A stretch of 64,000 nucleotides of DNA from contig NZ_JBBKTT010000001.1 of the NCBI RefSeq assembly GCF_037892425.1, forward strand, positions 3,100,001 through 3,164,000, in the 5' to 3' direction. The stretch's first letter is position 1, and every line of letters begins with the position of its first letter. The DNA comes from Lacibacter sp. H375 (GTDB taxonomy: Bacteria > Bacteroidota > Bacteroidia > Chitinophagales > Chitinophagaceae). A program made the position numbers and the translations under genes. Shown one piece after another: positions 11,807-21,810 of the stretch. The notes under the pieces were generated by a model that was not told the DNA's origin, did no database searches, and was given only the letters and a program-made list of their open reading frames with translations.

Positions 11807-12712
11807 TTATGCTGCGTTAATAACAAGAGGCTCAGGTTCATACTCACGACCAACTTCATCTTCTGTATTCAATTCCACACGATGCAGAATATCTTTCAAT
11901 GTTGCAAAACGTTGGATCATGTACGGCACCGTATCTAACCCGCTTACAAATTTCAGAATATAAGTATAGATGCCGATCATATCACCCGCCTGTAATGTTT
12001 TTCCATTTACAGACGAAACAGTTAATAGCGACGCAGTGATGATCAACATCACCAGTAATTCCATAACACCAAAATTCCATGCTTCCTGATCGCTGATCTT
12101 GATCTGCCATTTACGTAGTTTGTTATAATGTTCGTTGATGCGTAAGGGATTTCTTGTTGCAAGTACATTGATCTGTTGCTCCAGTTCATCGTTCTTTAAT
12201 TTATTCAAACGACGCATGCGTTTGCCATAGATATAACTGGTAATGGTAACGGGCACCAACATCAATAAACAAAGCAACACTACTTGTGTATCATAAAAGA
12301 ATAAGAGTATCATGGATCCTGCAATATTGTAGACTGCTTCAATAATATAGTTGAGATCAAACTCAAGGAAATCAATAAACTCTCTTGACAATGTTGAGTG
12401 AGCACTGAGTTTTGACAGATCTTTTTGTTTGTGTTTGCTCATCAGCTTTACCACAAGTGACGTATAGATCTCAGAATAGGTGCGTGAATCGTAACGGTGG
12501 CGGATAGTGCCTGTCATCACCCATAACAAATGAGCGCCGGCTAAGTAAAATAAACCAAAGTATGAGCCTTTGACGAGGTCGTTCACGGCTTCTCCTAAAA
12601 AGTAAGGACGCATCAATAAACCAAGCATCTCTACTGCAAAAAGCGAATAGGTAAGCAGCAGCTTATACTTATACTGTTTTACAATTGTTTGGATAACCCA
12701 TTTACCAGGCAT
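11807..12712 (-). CDS. ABC-exporter-type membrane domain without ATPase
   Basis: The protein has about six hydrophobic helices and the order of a type I ABC exporter membrane domain, including the long cytoplasmic loop region and the YILKFVSGLDTVPYMIQRF segment before the final linker. It ends, after about 300 residues, where an exporter would continue into its nucleotide-binding domain; no Walker A, LSGGQ or Walker B is present here or next to it. It resembles the stand-alone six-helix ABC_membrane_3 type. ATG 12712 is chosen; a TTG at 12739 would add nine residues. It is the last gene of the SET/ATP-grasp unit, 125 bases after the fusion gene. An export role is inference. Confidence 0.75.
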   Translation of the reverse strand: MPGKWVIQTIVKQYKYKLLLTYSLFAVEMLGLLMRPYFLGEAVNDLVKGSYFGLFYLAGAHLLWVMTGTIRHRYDSRTYSEIYTSLVVKLMSKHKQKDLSKLSAHSTLSREFIDFLEFDLNYIIEAVYNIAGSMILLFFYDTQVVLLCLLMLVPVTITSYIYGKRMRRLNKLKNDELEQQINVLATRNPLRINEHYNKLRKWQIKISDQEAWNFGVMELLVMLIITASLLTVSSVNGKTLQAGDMIGIYTYILKFVSGLDTVPYMIQRFATLKDILHRVELNTEDEVGREYEPEPLVINAA

Positions 12713-12837
12713 ACTTTCCTTCCTTTTAAAAATCCTCAAAATAGACTGTGCAGAATTGCCGGAGTTTAGTGAAAGAAAAGATTTCTTTTTCCCGGCATTT
12801 GGATTAGTAGAGAAGGCAAAGTTAGGTTGATGGGCTG

Positions 12838-14271
12838 TCAGTGAGGTCTGCTAATTTGCTCCTTTTGTGTGACAGAATTGCCTTGTGCGCCTGAAATAAT
12901 TTTCCGGCAGTCGGGTGTACCGCACTGGCATTCAAATGTTTCGGCGCTTTCATTGAGCAGATCGGCATAGTCTAATGTGAGCTCCTGCCCGGGTAAAATG
13001 GGGTGAAGCGCCACCAGGTTAAGGCCTTTATAAGCAGTGTTCGGTCGGCATGAATGATTCTGCGGTGCCCATTCCGATGGGTTGTTGTCCCATAATATAT
13101 ATACCTCGGTGCTCAAAGGCACAGCATAATGCCTGAACAAAAGCTTCTCTTCGGGCAGCCAGTTCTCTTCCACATATCGTTTGGTTACGATCCGTTGCGG
13201 ACGTTCTTCGCCTTTAAAGATCACTTCGCCTTCGGTAATATGTGTGGTGGCATAAATTCCAAAGCCGGCAATCGAATTGCCTTTCATCATGTACTTTTTC
13301 TGCTTGCGTTTGTGGCGTGCAATGCCTTCTTCAATAATGTGCTGCAGAAAACCGGCCTGGCCAATACCATCGGCTTTAATAATATAATCGGCGCTGCCTT
13401 CATACCCATCAGTATAAAAAACAGAACATGTAAAATTGACTTCAAGGAAAAATATCTTACCGGCATCATTCATACGAAAATCCATACGGGCATAACCAAC
13501 ACCCCCAAAACTTCTGAAAATGCGTTGGGCCGCTTCCGTTAGTTGTTGCCTGATGCCTGCATCGGTAACAGGTATATTGCTTTCAGGATGAAGCTCTGAT
13601 GTTTTAAGTGCGTATGTTTTAAAAGTTCTTCCTTCAGGAAAAATAAATTCAATGGGTTGAAACACTTTGCACTTCTTTTCATCTTTTGCATCAGCTGCAA
13701 CAAGCACAGTAAACTCTCTGCCGGCAATGTATTCTTCAACCAGCAGTTGAGGATATTCCTTTAATACAGTTGCAGCTTTTTGTTTTAACTCTTCAATAGT
13801 GTTACAAACAGAATGTTCATCAATACCTAAACTATCACCCGCTTTCGATGGTTTTACAAACAGTGGAAAGTTGAGATGATTCACATGCTGTTCCAATTGA
13901 TCAACAGTATCGATCAATGCATAATTTGCTGTAGCCACACCTTCGGTATATGCTACATACTTCATCAATTCTTTTGGCGGATCGTAGAGTAATGTGTTTG
14001 GCCCGGTGAACGGAAGATTGAGTAATTCCAAAGTATAGATCACATCAATGGAAGGTACTTCCCATTCGAGATAGCCTTCGCATAGATTTACAAAACAATC
14101 ATAACCTTTCTTGCTTAACTCAAGCAATTGCTTGTAAGTAGTGAGTTTGTTGAGCAATACATGATCGAACTGAATATGCGGCAACAAATGCGATAAATTC
14201 CTTGCAGGATCGTAATATTGGTAATCAACAGCAGATGTAGAATAGTCGGGTTGCAGTACACAGATCTTCAT
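12838..14271 (-). CDS. ATP-grasp ligase fused to a C-terminal SET domain
   Basis: Residues 1 to about 320 form a D-Ala-D-Ala-ligase-like ATP-grasp enzyme: PLFVKPSKAGDSLGI (Lys and Gly loop, near 135), LLVEEYIAGREFTV (near 182) and GYARMDFR...FLEVN (near 260-280) give the ATP and Mg2+ ligands. Residues about 325-460 are a SET methyltransferase: GFGIYATTHITEGE at the start, NHSCRPN near 410, ELTLDY near 437 with the catalytic Tyr, and a post-SET zinc-type CQCGTPDC near 450. ATP-grasp enzymes form amide bonds; SET domains methylate amines with S-adenosylmethionine. The gene starts 14 bases after a stand-alone paralogue of its first half. In the substrate loop the usual Pro of NTSPG is Cys (NFTC). 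Substrate unknown. Confidence 0.9.
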   Translation of the reverse strand: MKICVLQPDYSTSAVDYQYYDPARNLSHLLPHIQFDHVLLNKLTTYKQLLELSKKGYDCFVNLCEGYLEWEVPSIDVIYTLELLNLPFTGPNTLLYDPPKELMKYVAYTEGVATANYALIDTVDQLEQHVNHLNFPLFVKPSKAGDSLGIDEHSVCNTIEELKQKAATVLKEYPQLLVEEYIAGREFTVLVAADAKDEKKCKVFQPIEFIFPEGRTFKTYALKTSELHPESNIPVTDAGIRQQLTEAAQRIFRSFGGVGYARMDFRMNDAGKIFFLEVNFTCSVFYTDGYEGSADYIIKADGIGQAGFLQHIIEEGIARHKRKQKKYMMKGNSIAGFGIYATTHITEGEVIFKGEERPQRIVTKRYVEENWLPEEKLLFRHYAVPLSTEVYILWDNNPSEWAPQNHSCRPNTAYKGLNLVALHPILPGQELTLDYADLLNESAETFECQCGTPDCRKIISGAQGNSVTQKEQISRPH

Positions 14272-14285
14272 AAACCATCATGCTG

Positions 14286-15422
14286 TTAACGCACAGCCAC
14301 TGCCTTTTTTGTTTTTTTGTGATGACGTTGCATAGCGTCTTGTAAAATATGCAGAACTAAACCGGAGTAAGATTGATTGCTTAAACGAACAATAGCACCA
14401 ATGGAAGTATAGTTTTCGTCTTCACTTAATCCGCATTGTGCATTTACTTCCAGTACATACAATTTGCCGGTGGCCTTATCCATACGTATATCGATGCGGC
14501 CGTAACCCGTTCCCCCAACTGCACAATAAGCTTTCCAGCTCAGGTCCATGATCTTTTTCTGTAAGCCGATAGGAGGTAAGTTGTATTGATAAAAATCTTC
14601 AAACTCGCCAATGGGTTTTTCCTGTTCATAGGTTTCCCATAAACGATCGAAGGAGAGAAATTTTTCTGTATCGGGTAAGTCTTTATGAAAAATGCGCTCA
14701 ACCGGTGGATATACTCTTCTGCTTCTTGGCGATTGATGGGAGCCCGAAAGAAAAACGGTGTATTCTGGACCATTGATAAATTCTTCAGCTACCAATCCGC
14801 CAAACGAAAAATCCCAGCCACGGTAACCATCAAACAATTCTTTTACCAATGCTTTCAACTCTTCATCAGTATGCACTACATTCTTTACACCAAGGCCCAT
14901 GCTGCCACCGCTAACCGCAGGCTTTACGATCATGGGTGTGCCCACATAATTGCAAATACCGTTTAGCTTTTGTTTAGCATGATGAATAGGAACCCATTTC
15001 GCATGTGCAATACCTGCTTTATCAAACAACTCCTTCATAACGATCTTTGAAGTAGTGTTATCATAAAACGGGGCATCAGCTCCTGTATAAATCAGTTGTT
15101 TCTCTTTTAAATAATGAATCACTGAAACGCCGGGTGTGCCATTAACTTCATCACCATCACACAAATTAAGAACAACAGGTGTTTGAAAAGAAGTGGTAGC
15201 AGCTATATCGTCAATGATGGACTTAAAGTTACCCTGCGTAACAGGTTGCCATTTCCAATTAAGATTTAATTCAGTAAACACCTTTGTGTATTCATCAATG
15301 CTCTGGCTAAAATCATAATAGTAATCGAGATTTGCATCGTTGGTTTGGAGATGCGGTGCCAGTACCCAAATGAAGAGCGGATGTTCGGTGGAAGGAAGAG
15401 AATGAAATGGGTTTGAAAGCAT
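14286..15422 (-). CDS. ATP-grasp ligase, D-Ala-D-Ala ligase-like, non-canonical
   Basis: This 378-residue protein keeps the ATP-grasp core: PMIVKPAVSGGSMGLG near residue 165, VAEEFINGPEYTVFL near 210, and GYGRIDIR followed by LYVLEVN near 310-330, matching the Arg, Asp, Glu and Asn that bind ATP-Mg2+ in Ddl. It differs from true Ddl in a longer, different N-terminal domain and in NAQCG replacing NTSPG, so it is unlikely to be the cell-wall Ddl. It ends exactly where the SET domain begins in the fusion protein encoded next. It starts 15 bases after the SET gene. It probably couples a carboxylate to an amine via acyl phosphate; substrates are not known. Confidence 0.88.
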   Translation of the reverse strand: MLSNPFHSLPSTEHPLFIWVLAPHLQTNDANLDYYYDFSQSIDEYTKVFTELNLNWKWQPVTQGNFKSIIDDIAATTSFQTPVVLNLCDGDEVNGTPGVSVIHYLKEKQLIYTGADAPFYDNTTSKIVMKELFDKAGIAHAKWVPIHHAKQKLNGICNYVGTPMIVKPAVSGGSMGLGVKNVVHTDEELKALVKELFDGYRGWDFSFGGLVAEEFINGPEYTVFLSGSHQSPRSRRVYPPVERIFHKDLPDTEKFLSFDRLWETYEQEKPIGEFEDFYQYNLPPIGLQKKIMDLSWKAYCAVGGTGYGRIDIRMDKATGKLYVLEVNAQCGLSEDENYTSIGAIVRLSNQSYSGLVLHILQDAMQRHHKKTKKAVAVR

Positions 15423-15437
15423 AAGTAAATGTATAGA

Positions 15438-15932
15438 TTAATCGTTTATTTCATTCACTTTACCTTCAATAAATGCTGTTAACCGATAATGTTTCAATAA
15501 GTCTTTTGATAGTTCTTTTGCTCCTTTTATAACACCAATACAATTTACTTCACCGCAATGGCATGCAAAAGGATCGGCCATGAACCATTCGGTTGATGGA
15601 TAAAAGAAGGTAAACTCATCGCCTGCAGCAATAGGTTGCAATGCTTCCAGTTCCATTGTACTTGTATTAAAGAATGCATTGGGGTTACAACTGTGGTTAA
15701 TGTATTGCAGAAATTCAGGATGAAGAATAATATGTTCCTGTTCGTTTACCTGAACGGTGTAACGAGATGGAACTTCATGCACTTCACTTGCGCCGAATTT
15801 GCTGATCAAATCGCCGGGTTGAAATGCTTTGGTTGCAAGTAAGAGTTTGTGATTCGTGTCGGGATGCAGGTGAACATCTGCAAATCCGTAATGGCCGGTT
15901 ACAATGCTTGGGGTGAGGGTTTCTGTACTCAT
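15438..15932 (-). CDS. SET-domain methyltransferase-like protein (stand-alone)
   Basis: The 164-residue protein is almost only a SET domain. It has a LLATKAFQPGDLI strand, INHSCNPN near residue 80, GDEFTFFYPS near residue 104 with the likely catalytic Tyr, and a post-SET CHCGEVNC near residue 124. The GxG motif that normally opens a SET domain is degenerate, unlike in the fusion gene of the same operon. SET enzymes methylate lysine-type amines with S-adenosylmethionine. It is the first gene of the cluster and is followed after 15 bases by the ATP-grasp ligase. Whether it methylates a protein, a peptide or a small product of the ligases is unknown. Confidence 0.88.
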   Translation of the reverse strand: MSTETLTPSIVTGHYGFADVHLHPDTNHKLLLATKAFQPGDLISKFGASEVHEVPSRYTVQVNEQEHIILHPEFLQYINHSCNPNAFFNTSTMELEALQPIAAGDEFTFFYPSTEWFMADPFACHCGEVNCIGVIKGAKELSKDLLKHYRLTAFIEGKVNEIND

Positions 15933-18494: not shown

Positions 18495-20534
18495 TTATTT
18501 TACTTTCAATAAACTTGCGTTGATCGCCACTACAATTGTACTCACACTCATTAATACGGCTCCAGCAGCCGGACTTAATAAAACCCCGGCTTTATATAAC
18601 ACACCTGCAGCCAGCGGCAAGGCTATTACATTATATCCTGTTGCCCAAATTAAATTCTGAATCATCTTACGATAGGTAGCTTTTCCGAATAAAATTAAAC
18701 TTACAACGTCTTTCGGATTGCTGTTGACCAAAACAATACCGGCTGTTTCTGCTGCAATATCACTACCGCTGCCTATTGCAATGCCGATATCGGCCTGTGC
18801 CAATGCCGGTGCATCGTTCACACCATCACCGGTCATTGCAACAAACTCGCCTTTTTCTTGCAAATCTTTTATTTTTTCTAATTTCTGATGAGGCAAAACT
18901 TCCGCAAAAAAATCATCCATCCGCAAGGTTTTACTTACGCTTGCTGCAACTTTTTTATTGTCGCCGGTGAGTAAAATTGATTTAATGTTGTTTGATCTTA
19001 AGGTGTTGATTGCTTCCGCTGATTCAGGTCTTATTTCATCTGATAAAGCGATATAGCCAGCCAATATTTGATTGATGATGATAAATACAACTGTCTCTGT
19101 GTCGTTGGCAGCAAAACCATCAGGCAACTGAATGTTCTTTTCTGCTAAAAAGCCCGGGCTCACTACCAAAACACTTTTACCTTCAACCGTTGCTTCAACT
19201 CCCTTTCCGGTAATGGCTTTAAAATCTTCTGCTGTTGGAGTAGTGATTCCTGCTTCTTTTGCTTTTTGTATGATGCCGGTTGCAATCGGATGTTCAGAAT
19301 TTTGTTCCAATGCGGATGCAAATCGTAAGATATCTTTTTCTGAAAAATTATCCTGTAATGAAACGGTTTTTGAAACTTCGAATTTCCCAACAGTCAGCGT
19401 TCCTGTTTTATCAAAAACGATCGTTGTAATTTTCCGTGCATTTTCAAAAGCGGTTCTGTTTTTGATCAGCAATCCATGTTTGGCTGATAATGCTGTTGAT
19501 TTTGCAACCACCAACGGCACGGCTAATCCCAATGCATGCGGGCAACAAATAACGATCACTGTCACCATTCTTTCGATGGCAAAAGCCAATTCTTTACCAG
19601 ACATATACCAAATTGAAAAAGTGGCAATGCCCGCAACAATCGCAATAATCGTAAGCCACCTTGCGGCTTTATTCGCCAGTAGCTGTGTTTTTGATTTTGA
19701 GTTTTGTGCATCCTGCACCAGTTTGATGACCTGCGATAAGTAAGAATCTTTTGCTCCATGCAATACTGAAACTTTAATAGCACCATTGCCATTAATGGAA
19801 CCAGCAATTACTTTATCGTTTTTTATTTTTCGAACAGGTTTTGATTCACCGGTTAACATTGATTCGTTCAAATAACTTCCTCCATCGGCAATGATGCCAT
19901 CGGCAGCCACTTTCTCGCCGGGCTTGATGAGTATGATATCATTTTCTTTTAGTGTTTCGGTTTTCACATCCATGATATGATCTCCATGAATGAGGTGTGC
20001 ATCATCCGGCATGAGCTGTACAAGCAATTCCAGTTCTTTTGATGCGCCGGCGATTGATTTCATTTCGATCCAATGCCCCAGCAGCATAATGAGTATCAAT
20101 GTTGCCAATTCCCAAAAGAAATCCATTCCTTTTAACCCGAATACTGTTGCTACACTGTAGATGTATGCAACTGAAATGGCAAAACCAACCAGCGTCATCA
20201 TACCGGGATTCTTTGCTTTCATCTCATCAAACCAGCCTTTTAAAAAAGGCCAGCCGCCATAAAAGAAAACAACTGAGGCCAACGCAAATAATACATAATC
20301 TGAACCGGCAAAGCTGAAATGAATATTGAGCCAATGCTGAATCATTTCTGATAACAGCATGATTGGAACTGTGAGGATTAAAACAATATAAAACCGTTTT
20401 TTGAAATCTTGAATCATCATGGCGTGATGATCATGACCTGCATGCCCCATTGGAGGATTCTTTTCAACATGATGGGAATGTTCATGTTGAACGGGAGCTT
20501 TTGCCTTTTCATGTTGATGATGCGAATGATCCAT
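18495..20534 (-). CDS. copB: CopB-type heavy-metal P-type ATPase
   Basis: The start MDHSHHQHEK at 20534 gives 679 residues and a His-rich N-terminus in place of CxxC domains. Core motifs are in order: TGES near residue 245, the transmembrane metal motif CCPHALGLAVPLV near 360, DKTGTLTVG near 405 with the phosphorylated Asp, and GDGVNDAPALAQADIGIA near 600. CPH instead of CPC marks the group usually assigned to Cu(II)/Cu(I) or Ag(I) export from the cytoplasm. A longer reading frame to 20618 overlaps the adaptor gene and is not preferred. The start lies ten bases after the adaptor stop. Confidence 0.93.
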   Translation of the reverse strand: MDHSHHQHEKAKAPVQHEHSHHVEKNPPMGHAGHDHHAMMIQDFKKRFYIVLILTVPIMLLSEMIQHWLNIHFSFAGSDYVLFALASVVFFYGGWPFLKGWFDEMKAKNPGMMTLVGFAISVAYIYSVATVFGLKGMDFFWELATLILIMLLGHWIEMKSIAGASKELELLVQLMPDDAHLIHGDHIMDVKTETLKENDIILIKPGEKVAADGIIADGGSYLNESMLTGESKPVRKIKNDKVIAGSINGNGAIKVSVLHGAKDSYLSQVIKLVQDAQNSKSKTQLLANKAARWLTIIAIVAGIATFSIWYMSGKELAFAIERMVTVIVICCPHALGLAVPLVVAKSTALSAKHGLLIKNRTAFENARKITTIVFDKTGTLTVGKFEVSKTVSLQDNFSEKDILRFASALEQNSEHPIATGIIQKAKEAGITTPTAEDFKAITGKGVEATVEGKSVLVVSPGFLAEKNIQLPDGFAANDTETVVFIIINQILAGYIALSDEIRPESAEAINTLRSNNIKSILLTGDNKKVAASVSKTLRMDDFFAEVLPHQKLEKIKDLQEKGEFVAMTGDGVNDAPALAQADIGIAIGSGSDIAAETAGIVLVNSNPKDVVSLILFGKATYRKMIQNLIWATGYNVIALPLAAGVLYKAGVLLSPAAGAVLMSVSTIVVAINASLLKVK

Positions 20535-20544
20535 AAAAAAATAT

Positions 20545-21810
20545 TTAATGGTTATGACCCGCCATCGGGTCAGCACCTTTTTTAAATACATATTCACTGT
20601 GCAACAGGTAAGCGCCACTCATTACCACAACATCACCGGCTATTAATCCTGATTTTATTTCAATACGATCATTGCTTTCCAAACCCACTTGCACCATTTT
20701 GCTTTTGAATGAATGTTCACCGGTTCTTATCCATACTGTCGCACCTTTACCATCCCGTATCACTGCATCAATGGGCAAGGTGAGTGATTTACGTTGTGTG
20801 CTTTTCAATACTACATAAGCCGGCATGCCGGGTTTTAACTGGTTGCCACTATTGGGAATGGAAACACGGATAAGATTGATTCTTGTATCGGGATTGATTT
20901 CCGGATTTACAAATTCAATTCGTCCTTTGATTTCTTTATCGTCCATATCGGGCAATTGAACAGTTGCTGTTCCGTTAAGATCAATTTCTGAAAGCTGCGA
21001 TGTATACACCTGTGCTTCTGCCCACAGTGTTGAGAGATCGGCCAGCTTTACAATTGTTCCACCTTCCATGACATAATCGCCTTCACGAATATCCATTGTG
21101 GTAATATAACCGGCAGCTGTGCTGTAAAACGTAGTAAGCGGTGTCGACTTTTTTGTCTTCGCCAGTTCATTGATCTGCGCTTCACTCAATCCCCACAGCA
21201 GTAATTTGTTTTTGGCGCTTTGTAATAATTGTTCAAAATCGATGACTGTTTCCGTAGCAAATGTTTTTTTCTGTTCCAGTGCAAGAAGGTATTCCTGTTT
21301 GGCATTGTTGAGGTCTTCGCTATATACTGCATATAACGCTGCACCCTTGCTGACATAATCACCAATGTTTTTGAAATACAGTTTTTCAATTCTGCCCATC
21401 ACTCTTGAACTCACAGAAGATGTCTTCAACTGATCGAAGTTGAGACTGGCAGTTAATACCAGGCGATCGCCGATTGTTCCTGTGCGGATGGTATCGGTTT
21501 GGATGTTCCCCAACTGAATCTGTTGATCACTCAATTGTATTTCATCTTTCTTTTCACCATTTCGTTTTTTCACTGGTGTAAGATCCATTTTGCAGATGGG
21601 ACATTTACCCGGCTTATATTCTACCACCTGTGGATCCATTGAACAGGTGTAGTATACATCACTTTCTGCTTGATCATTTTTTTTCTCTTTGCAAGATGCA
21701 AGTAAGAATAGGCAAAAGGCAATTGACAATAGGCAAACAGAGCCCAACTTTCGTAGATTGCCTATTGCATATTGCTTATTGCCCATTGATATATTTTGTT
21801 GTTTCATCAT
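20545..21810 (-). CDS. RND efflux periplasmic adaptor with one metal-binding repeat (CusB-like)
   Basis: The 421-residue lipoprotein has, after a LFLLASC lipobox, one heavy-metal-binding repeat (YTCSMDPQV...CPICKMDL near residues 53-80), then the barrel-sandwich and beta-barrel layout of membrane-fusion proteins. CusB-type adaptors link the RND pump to the outer-membrane channel and accept metal in the periplasm. Its ATG overlaps the stop of the adaptor before it (TAATG). The stretch from about residue 7 to 40, including the hydrophobic signal core, is encoded inside a 7-base-period repeat tract, which is unusual. It is the second of two adaptors in the island. Confidence 0.9.
   Translation of the reverse strand: MMKQQNISMGNKQYAIGNLRKLGSVCLLSIAFCLFLLASCKEKKNDQAESDVYYTCSMDPQVVEYKPGKCPICKMDLTPVKKRNGEKKDEIQLSDQQIQLGNIQTDTIRTGTIGDRLVLTASLNFDQLKTSSVSSRVMGRIEKLYFKNIGDYVSKGAALYAVYSEDLNNAKQEYLLALEQKKTFATETVIDFEQLLQSAKNKLLLWGLSEAQINELAKTKKSTPLTTFYSTAAGYITTMDIREGDYVMEGGTIVKLADLSTLWAEAQVYTSQLSEIDLNGTATVQLPDMDDKEIKGRIEFVNPEINPDTRINLIRVSIPNSGNQLKPGMPAYVVLKSTQRKSLTLPIDAVIRDGKGATVWIRTGEHSFKSKMVQVGLESNDRIEIKSGLIAGDVVVMSGAYLLHSEYVFKKGADPMAGHNH
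21691..21795. repeat. Heptad repeat tract E inside the adaptor's signal peptide codons
   Basis: Fifteen 7-base units without phase slip run across 105 bases (gcaaaag, gcaattg, acaatag, gcaaaca on one arm; tagattg, cctattg, catattg, cttattg, cccattg on the other). The arms are roughly inverted copies, so the tract can fold back. It lies within the 5' coding part of the adaptor gene. Confidence 0.8.

Follow-up and report, generated by a model that had tools for sequence, protein, structure and literature searches.

SET-domain methyltransferases are best known as histone writers in our own cells, and bacterial SET proteins are usually annotated as protein-lysine methyltransferases. ATP-grasp enzymes form amide bonds via acyl phosphates. 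Ddl-type ligases join free amino acids, as do BacD and other L-amino-acid ligases, and graspetides are made by ATP-grasp ligase clusters in which exporters are frequent. BurB and MSMT are SET-domain methionine S-methyltransferases of dimethylsulfoniopropionate (DMSP) and malleicyprol synthesis. BurB S-methylates free methionine and is inactive on MTHB and MMPA (PMC12542666). S-methylmethionine was undetected in B. thailandensis without the BurB gene, and BurB functions in a sulfonium pathway (PMC7496086). A locus with both SET and ATP-grasp genes was analysed in Lacibacter sp. H375, within a window of 64,000 nucleotides (the whole stretch of DNA analysed; contig NZ_JBBKTT010000001.1, positions 3,100,001 to 3,164,000) on a 5.08-Mb genome; the closest named relatives of this locus belong to Lacibacter. 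The chances appear evenly balanced that the genes form a small-molecule pathway whose product is a small methylated amide or peptide of amino acids, with an ABC protein taking part in some genomes; a protein tag is the less favoured reading.

The locus comprises four open reading frames (ORFs), all on the minus strand. A stand-alone SET protein (SET, 164 amino acids, 15438..15932; Pfam SET 1.1e-8), with BurB as nearest solved relative, is followed after 15 bases by a Ddl-type ATP-grasp ligase without a SET domain (GRASP, 378 amino acids, 14286..15422; Pfam Dala_Dala_lig_C 4.1e-17). After another 14 bases, a fusion protein (FUS, 477 amino acids, 12838..14271) combines a Ddl-type ATP-grasp ligase (about residues 1-325; Pfam Dala_Dala_lig_C 2.5e-23) with a C-terminal SET domain (about residues 330-465; Pfam SET 1.5e-9). 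This domain occupies 12838..13290, its start being approximate, and carries the motifs NHSC and TLDY and a CxC...C post-SET motif. Both Pfam SET scores exceed the cut-off. The last gene encodes an ABC-exporter-type transmembrane protein without an ATPase domain (ABC, 11807..12712; Pfam ABC_membrane_3 6.6e-41, no ABC_tran). ORF coordinates and Pfam confirmed the layout described in an initial annotation: one strand, gaps of 15, 14 and 125 bases, this domain content, and two copies of each catalytic domain, SET and ATP-grasp. Its remark that no described pathway has exactly this set also stands for the open-access literature, which leaves out most subscription journals and in which no description of a bacterial SET/ATP-grasp system was found among the papers listed.

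Conservation and distribution of the genes

A survey of 147 sampled Chitinophagaceae genomes at strict E thresholds (1e-100 for FUS; further ones of 1e-60, 1e-30 and 1e-40) detected FUS in 46, GRASP in 47, SET in 47 and ABC in 21. Of the 48 genomes holding any of SET, GRASP and FUS, 45 had the complete trio. The three exceptions were G648, which has no FUS and whose GRASP extends to the edge of its contig, G654 without SET, and G650 with SET alone. GRASP and FUS were at most 4 kb apart in all 46 genomes with both, and SET was similarly close to GRASP (4 kb or less) in 42 of 46. In the remaining four, SET was present but distant: G034 carries it far from GRASP along a single contig, and G633, G608 and G571 have it on a different contig, possibly through breaks in the assembly. 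Fisher tests for the enzyme pairs gave values of 3e-34 and below, kinship of the genomes being ignored. ABC was found in only 20 of the 45 genomes with all three enzymes and once more in G648; therefore, the three enzymes are the core of the system and ABC is accessory.

The gene order was read from 80 named loci, which are the best 80 of 305 FUS relatives picked by similarity to FUS; many of them end at contig edges. SET was directly followed by GRASP in 61 loci, GRASP by FUS in 73, and FUS by ABC in 54, with median gaps of 6, 17 and 101 bases, respectively. The genes flanking the cluster differ from locus to locus while the order within it stays. FUS was found at full length in 16 of 59 sampled genomes (the window's own counted), plus one fragment at a contig end. 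Several genera have the four genes together between other flanks (L045, L047, L048 and L050, with SET behind ABC in L048). In L046 and L049 no ABC gene is adjacent, and L046 also lacks a neighbouring SET. A linked pathway with conserved order, and a fusion reaching beyond one assembly, had been set beforehand as the test, and the co-occurrence and the order in the 80 loci, in several genera, bear this out. The four-gene cluster initially described holds for three linked enzymes; the ABC gene is an accessory, present in only 21 of the 147 genomes.

The carriers are bacteria from water and soil. Among 395 genomes of the phylum, FUS was detected at E 1e-40 in 17: five belong to the family and nine to one genus, and the others are G267, G266 and G392. 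The FMO protein was present in all six tested genomes of the nine-genome genus and in none of three other genomes tested, so this genus is probably Chlorobium or near it. Its operon has the order SET-FUS-ABC-SET, complete in six of nine loci (L162, L163, L165, L167, L169 and L170); in L161, L164 and L166 the operon is incomplete, cut by contig ends or by ORF picking. GRASP is absent from this genus, the best match of the GRASP profile being FUS itself in seven of seven genomes tested. The first SET is close to the cluster SET (profile match 1.9e-52), and the second stands at about the same distance from BurB and from yeast Set1. In L165 (12756-13112), the second SET gene stands at the operon end, encodes 118 amino acids and has the glycine loop, unlike the first SET. 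The ABC protein is a full exporter, with an ATPase domain beside the transmembrane one (assigned by Pfam in L165, with which the other five sequences share 85-95 percent identity). Since a profile built from it does not resemble the ABC protein of the Chitinophagaceae, an ABC protein may have joined the enzymes twice.

In G267, SET and GRASP share a contig, and FUS lies on a second one. FUS-type matches occurred in 5 of 195 sampled genomes of the class of G266. In G517, one of these five, the ligase domain stands without SET; therefore, the fusion was gained or lost. None of 68 pattern-matching stretches of viral contigs encoded a relative, and no place on the plasmids searched covers 80 percent of FUS. 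Near the rhizobial and Thioflavicoccus ATP-grasp relatives, no SET is annotated in a gene table that is itself incomplete. The Thioflavicoccus plasmid (L198:2485-6831) has in a row genes for a diaminobutyrate transaminase, an SbnA-like and an ornithine-cyclodeaminase-like protein and a Ddl-type ligase, possibly for a diaminopropionate or diaminobutyrate peptide.

Relatives of the SET proteins and the ligases

In a profile search of the PDB, the stand-alone SET matched BurB at 7.5e-19 over 126 positions, and the next entry, a histone methyltransferase, at 1.9e-8 over 67 positions. Its AlphaFold2 model (pLDDT 93.4) superimposed on BurB with Z-scores of 15.6 (129 residues, 3.2 A) and 14.5, the best non-BurB entry reaching 11.5; a family missing from these fold-match lists is not excluded by its absence. 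A control SET protein of the same genome (L001) was nearest to KMT2A (3.4e-19), and BurB was not among the best 60 of its 101 matches. By sequence and predicted fold, the stand-alone SET is thus nearer to BurB than to protein methyltransferases. It shares with BurB the TxQ, HSC, Y.STE, CxC...C and GA motifs. It differs in its setting, as the cluster has a Ddl-type ligase, which is not seen in the DMSP route of BurB as described in the literature consulted. The initial annotation stated that SET domains methylate amine groups. This restriction to amines is too narrow, given that the nearest solved relative of the stand-alone SET methylates the sulphur of free methionine. The SET domain of FUS retains the glycine loop for S-adenosylmethionine (SAM); its nearest solved relative is likewise BurB (2e-11), by a small margin over KMT2D (2e-9) in the profile search.

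Relatives of SET were matched on eight plasmid records, four of them from Streptomyces. Six of the eight regions were opened, one of which carries no annotation. On the Eleftheria terrae plasmid (L201:978-18462), SET is found with a polyketide synthase, a dioxygenase, an aminotransferase, an aldehyde dehydrogenase and a thioester reductase, an arrangement that recalls the bur genes. On the Sphingomonas plasmid, SET precedes a diaminopimelate-decarboxylase-type gene. Rhizobium plasmid p7 (L203:5871-7783) has in a row an asparagine-synthase-like gene, the SET relative, annotated as hypothetical, and a SAM decarboxylase gene. The plasmid also bears RuvC, ribonucleotide reductase and ParB-domain genes. 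On two Streptomyces plasmids, SET precedes a SulP transporter gene, with an aminotransferase some genes off. Three of the five annotated contexts point to amino-acid metabolism, in a small sample of eight records.

Both ligases gave Ddl-type chains as top matches in sequence searches, with other ATP-grasp enzymes lower. In the AlphaFold2 model of FUS (pLDDT 86.9), residues 1-325 match the fold of DdlA with a Z-score of 27.5 over 293 residues; GRASP is assigned to Ddl by its profile match, the fold comparison having been made for FUS only. Residues R309, D311, E325 and N327 of GRASP are invariant in 50 aligned sequences, and the corresponding D/E/N and R of FUS are invariant among its aligned sequences as well. 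From studies on Ddl, we take the acidic residues and N to bind Mg and R to be catalytic. GRASP and FUS are paralogous (profile match 2.8e-34, 28 percent identity). Both are thus predicted to be ATP-grasp carboxylate-amine ligases of the Ddl type.

With Ddl and Van ligases, FUS shares the whole Ddl fold and both proteins share the Mg-binding residues. They differ in scoring under the curated family cut-offs, in the SET fusion of FUS and in another acceptor loop. The loop following the last N, which holds the second D-Ala in Ddl, is longer in the cluster ligases and unlike that of Ddl. A function as D-Ala-D-Ala ligase proper was rejected, as TIGR01205 (NCBIfam) scores FUS with 91.6 and GRASP with 69.3 against a cut-off of 245.65. 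Another Ddl-type ORF of the genome (333 amino acids) is probably the housekeeping one. Membership in the TTL/TTLL family was likewise rejected, with no TTL match in Pfam at E 0.1. GRASP also matches BacD weakly (1.1e-6), but only over part of the fold. We know of no SET partner for BacD-type ligases.

Proposed pathway and alternative explanations

Because the ligases are of the Ddl type and the stand-alone SET is related to BurB, the simplest reading is a small product that is assembled from free amino acids and that one SET or both methylate. In the scheme proposed here, whose activities, step order, substrates, product, methylated atom and transport we infer, the stand-alone SET would methylate a free amino acid or a small amine or thioether unit with SAM in BurB-like chemistry. 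With ATP, GRASP and FUS would form acyl phosphates and couple amino-acid units through one or two amide bonds. The SET domain on FUS may methylate a unit or the fresh product on the same enzyme. ABC (in somewhat under half of the genomes) or the full exporter of the Chlorobium-like genus would handle the product at the membrane. This small-molecule reading is supported by the co-occurrence of the three enzymes, including the four genomes with SET away from GRASP, by the operon order persisting amid varying flanks, and by the kinship of SET to BurB while the control SET is nearest to KMT2A. It is also supported by the amino-acid enzymes adjoining SET relatives on plasmids, the best matches of the ligases to Ddl with their conserved residues, the lack of a conserved precursor-like small ORF, and the different ABC protein paired with the enzymes in the Chlorobium-like genus.

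Several observations weigh against it. The co-occurrence counts are not corrected for relatedness, and ABC is absent from 25 of the 45 genomes with all three enzymes. The cluster SET lacks the SAM-loop glycines, which FUS keeps. Of the SAM contacts of BurB (the R42/A44 loop, H93, R133 and H138, as numbered in PMC12542666), H93 is the sole one retained across the stand-alone SETs. Since the glycine motif is missing and R133 and H138 are not conserved, the stand-alone SET could be inactive or a partner subunit. Methionine is held in BurB through main-chain contacts only, so SET specificity cannot be read from the residues. The SET domain of FUS is only slightly closer to BurB than to the histone enzymes KMT2D and KMT2A. 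The phylogenetic tree groups the first Chlorobium-like SET with the SETs of the cluster in a single clade (93/96, under the strict mark of the tool). This clade is apart from the plasmid SETs of Eleftheria, Rhizobium and Sphingomonas, which served as BurB-type stand-ins in a tree without BurB itself. The FUS SETs form another clade (96/99), and the deep joins among the SET clades are weakly supported. In the Streptomyces context, no amino-acid enzyme lies directly beside SET.

The initial annotation proposed that the cluster builds an amide-linked compound or tags a protein, which is then methylated. The linked ligase/SET pathway stands, whereas the protein tag loses ground: for the stand-alone SET as for the ligases, the closest characterised relatives use free amino acids as substrates. 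Protein tagging, in which the ligases would attach amino acids to a protein whose lysines the SETs methylate, as a bacterial counterpart of tubulin or histone modification, is considered unlikely. It would fit the fact that SET domains are known mostly as protein-lysine methyltransferases, and the scores of the FUS SET domain against KMT2D and KMT2A come close to its score against BurB. Eukaryotic TTLL12, like FUS, is a single protein with a SET-like domain and a ligase domain for amino acids, but its ligase is of the TTL type and it reportedly has no histone methyltransferase activity (PMC3520985). The cluster ligases are of the Ddl type without a TTL match, and the stand-alone SET is nearest to an enzyme acting on a free amino acid.

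An equally improbable alternative is a sulfonium building block. SET would make S-methylmethionine or another sulfonium amino acid, which the ligases would cap or store as a dipeptide-like osmolyte or methyl store. The kinship of SET to BurB and the function of the latter in a sulfonium pathway (PMC7496086) favour this explanation. SET specificity is not legible from residues, however, the SAM-contact residues differ, the cluster SETs form a separate clade, and the four genes include no decarboxylase or transaminase.

A graspetide-like ribosomally synthesized and post-translationally modified peptide (RiPP), a short gene-encoded peptide cross-linked by the ligases, methylated by the SETs and exported by ABC, is very unlikely. 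An ATP-grasp enzyme, a methyltransferase and an ABC protein make up a typical RiPP set, and the cluster resembles those of graspetides in its ATP-grasp ligases and exporter-type partner. It differs in its Ddl-type ligases and in having no precursor peptide at the places scanned: no conserved separate small ORF was found in 60 stretches of 450 bases upstream of SET, in 55 FUS-ABC gaps or in 55 stretches of 300 bases downstream of ABC (the window counted in each). Recurrent upstream small ORFs, each in up to six loci, are fragments of, or antisense to, neighbours such as thioredoxin. A 26-amino-acid upstream ORF in L106, recurring in five other loci, was rejected as a peptide candidate; it and the ORFs that match it are antisense to a neighbouring gene. 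A cell-envelope variant, with an altered D-Ala-type dipeptide made for peptidoglycan by the ligases and carried by ABC, is suggested by the Ddl fold and motifs but is the most doubtful, given the other, probably housekeeping, Ddl-type ORF, scores far under the D-Ala-D-Ala ligase cut-off, and the lengthened acceptor loop unlike that of Ddl.

Neighbouring genes and biological significance

Pfam detected no ATPase domain (ABC_tran) in the ABC protein of the window or in the three enzymes. The ORF of ABC is open from a TTG at 12739, which would leave a gap of 98 bases to FUS; its start is most likely the ATG at 12712 (125 bases), which matches the starts of its nearest relatives. The recurrent neighbours of the 80 loci read as helicase, SSB, MnmG, NadD, RecQ and similar proteins by sequence inspection rather than family search. 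Being housekeeping-like and differing among loci, they were rejected as pathway members. A kynureninase and an OMP-decarboxylase-type gene surround GRASP-FUS in L046 and L102, but these loci are syntenic and therefore not independent. In G266 (L160:5041-13099), FUS lies between a gamma-glutamyltranspeptidase and a run of FGase, MATCAP and glutathione-synthetase-like ATP-grasp genes, and in G392 it is near a peptidase C26. A gamma-glutamyl role was discarded, as no such context recurs among the neighbours scanned in G492, G529 and G517. An anti-phage defence function was also dismissed, with PADLOC matching none of the four proteins at E 0.01. Elsewhere in the window, a P-type ATPase gene (18495-20618) is located between genes that are directly adjacent in some congeners (spaced by 58 bases in L036), so it was either inserted in the genome of the window or lost in the congeners.

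With somewhat less than an even chance, the locus may represent an undescribed bacterial pathway in which SET proteins act as small-molecule enzymes, one of them fused to a Ddl-type ligase, and make a methylated, possibly sulfonium, amino-acid amide. It would be spread in the Chitinophagaceae, the Chlorobium-like genus and scattered lineages of the same phylum. Several of the plasmid SET relatives are annotated as protein-lysine methyltransferases. If the proposal is true, the fusion and co-inheritance of SET with amino-acid ligases would point to a small-molecule branch of bacterial SET proteins, and the locus would be a second SET-based metabolite route beside that of BurB. It would be a compact three-gene system in culturable bacteria, with a product open to search by metabolomics.

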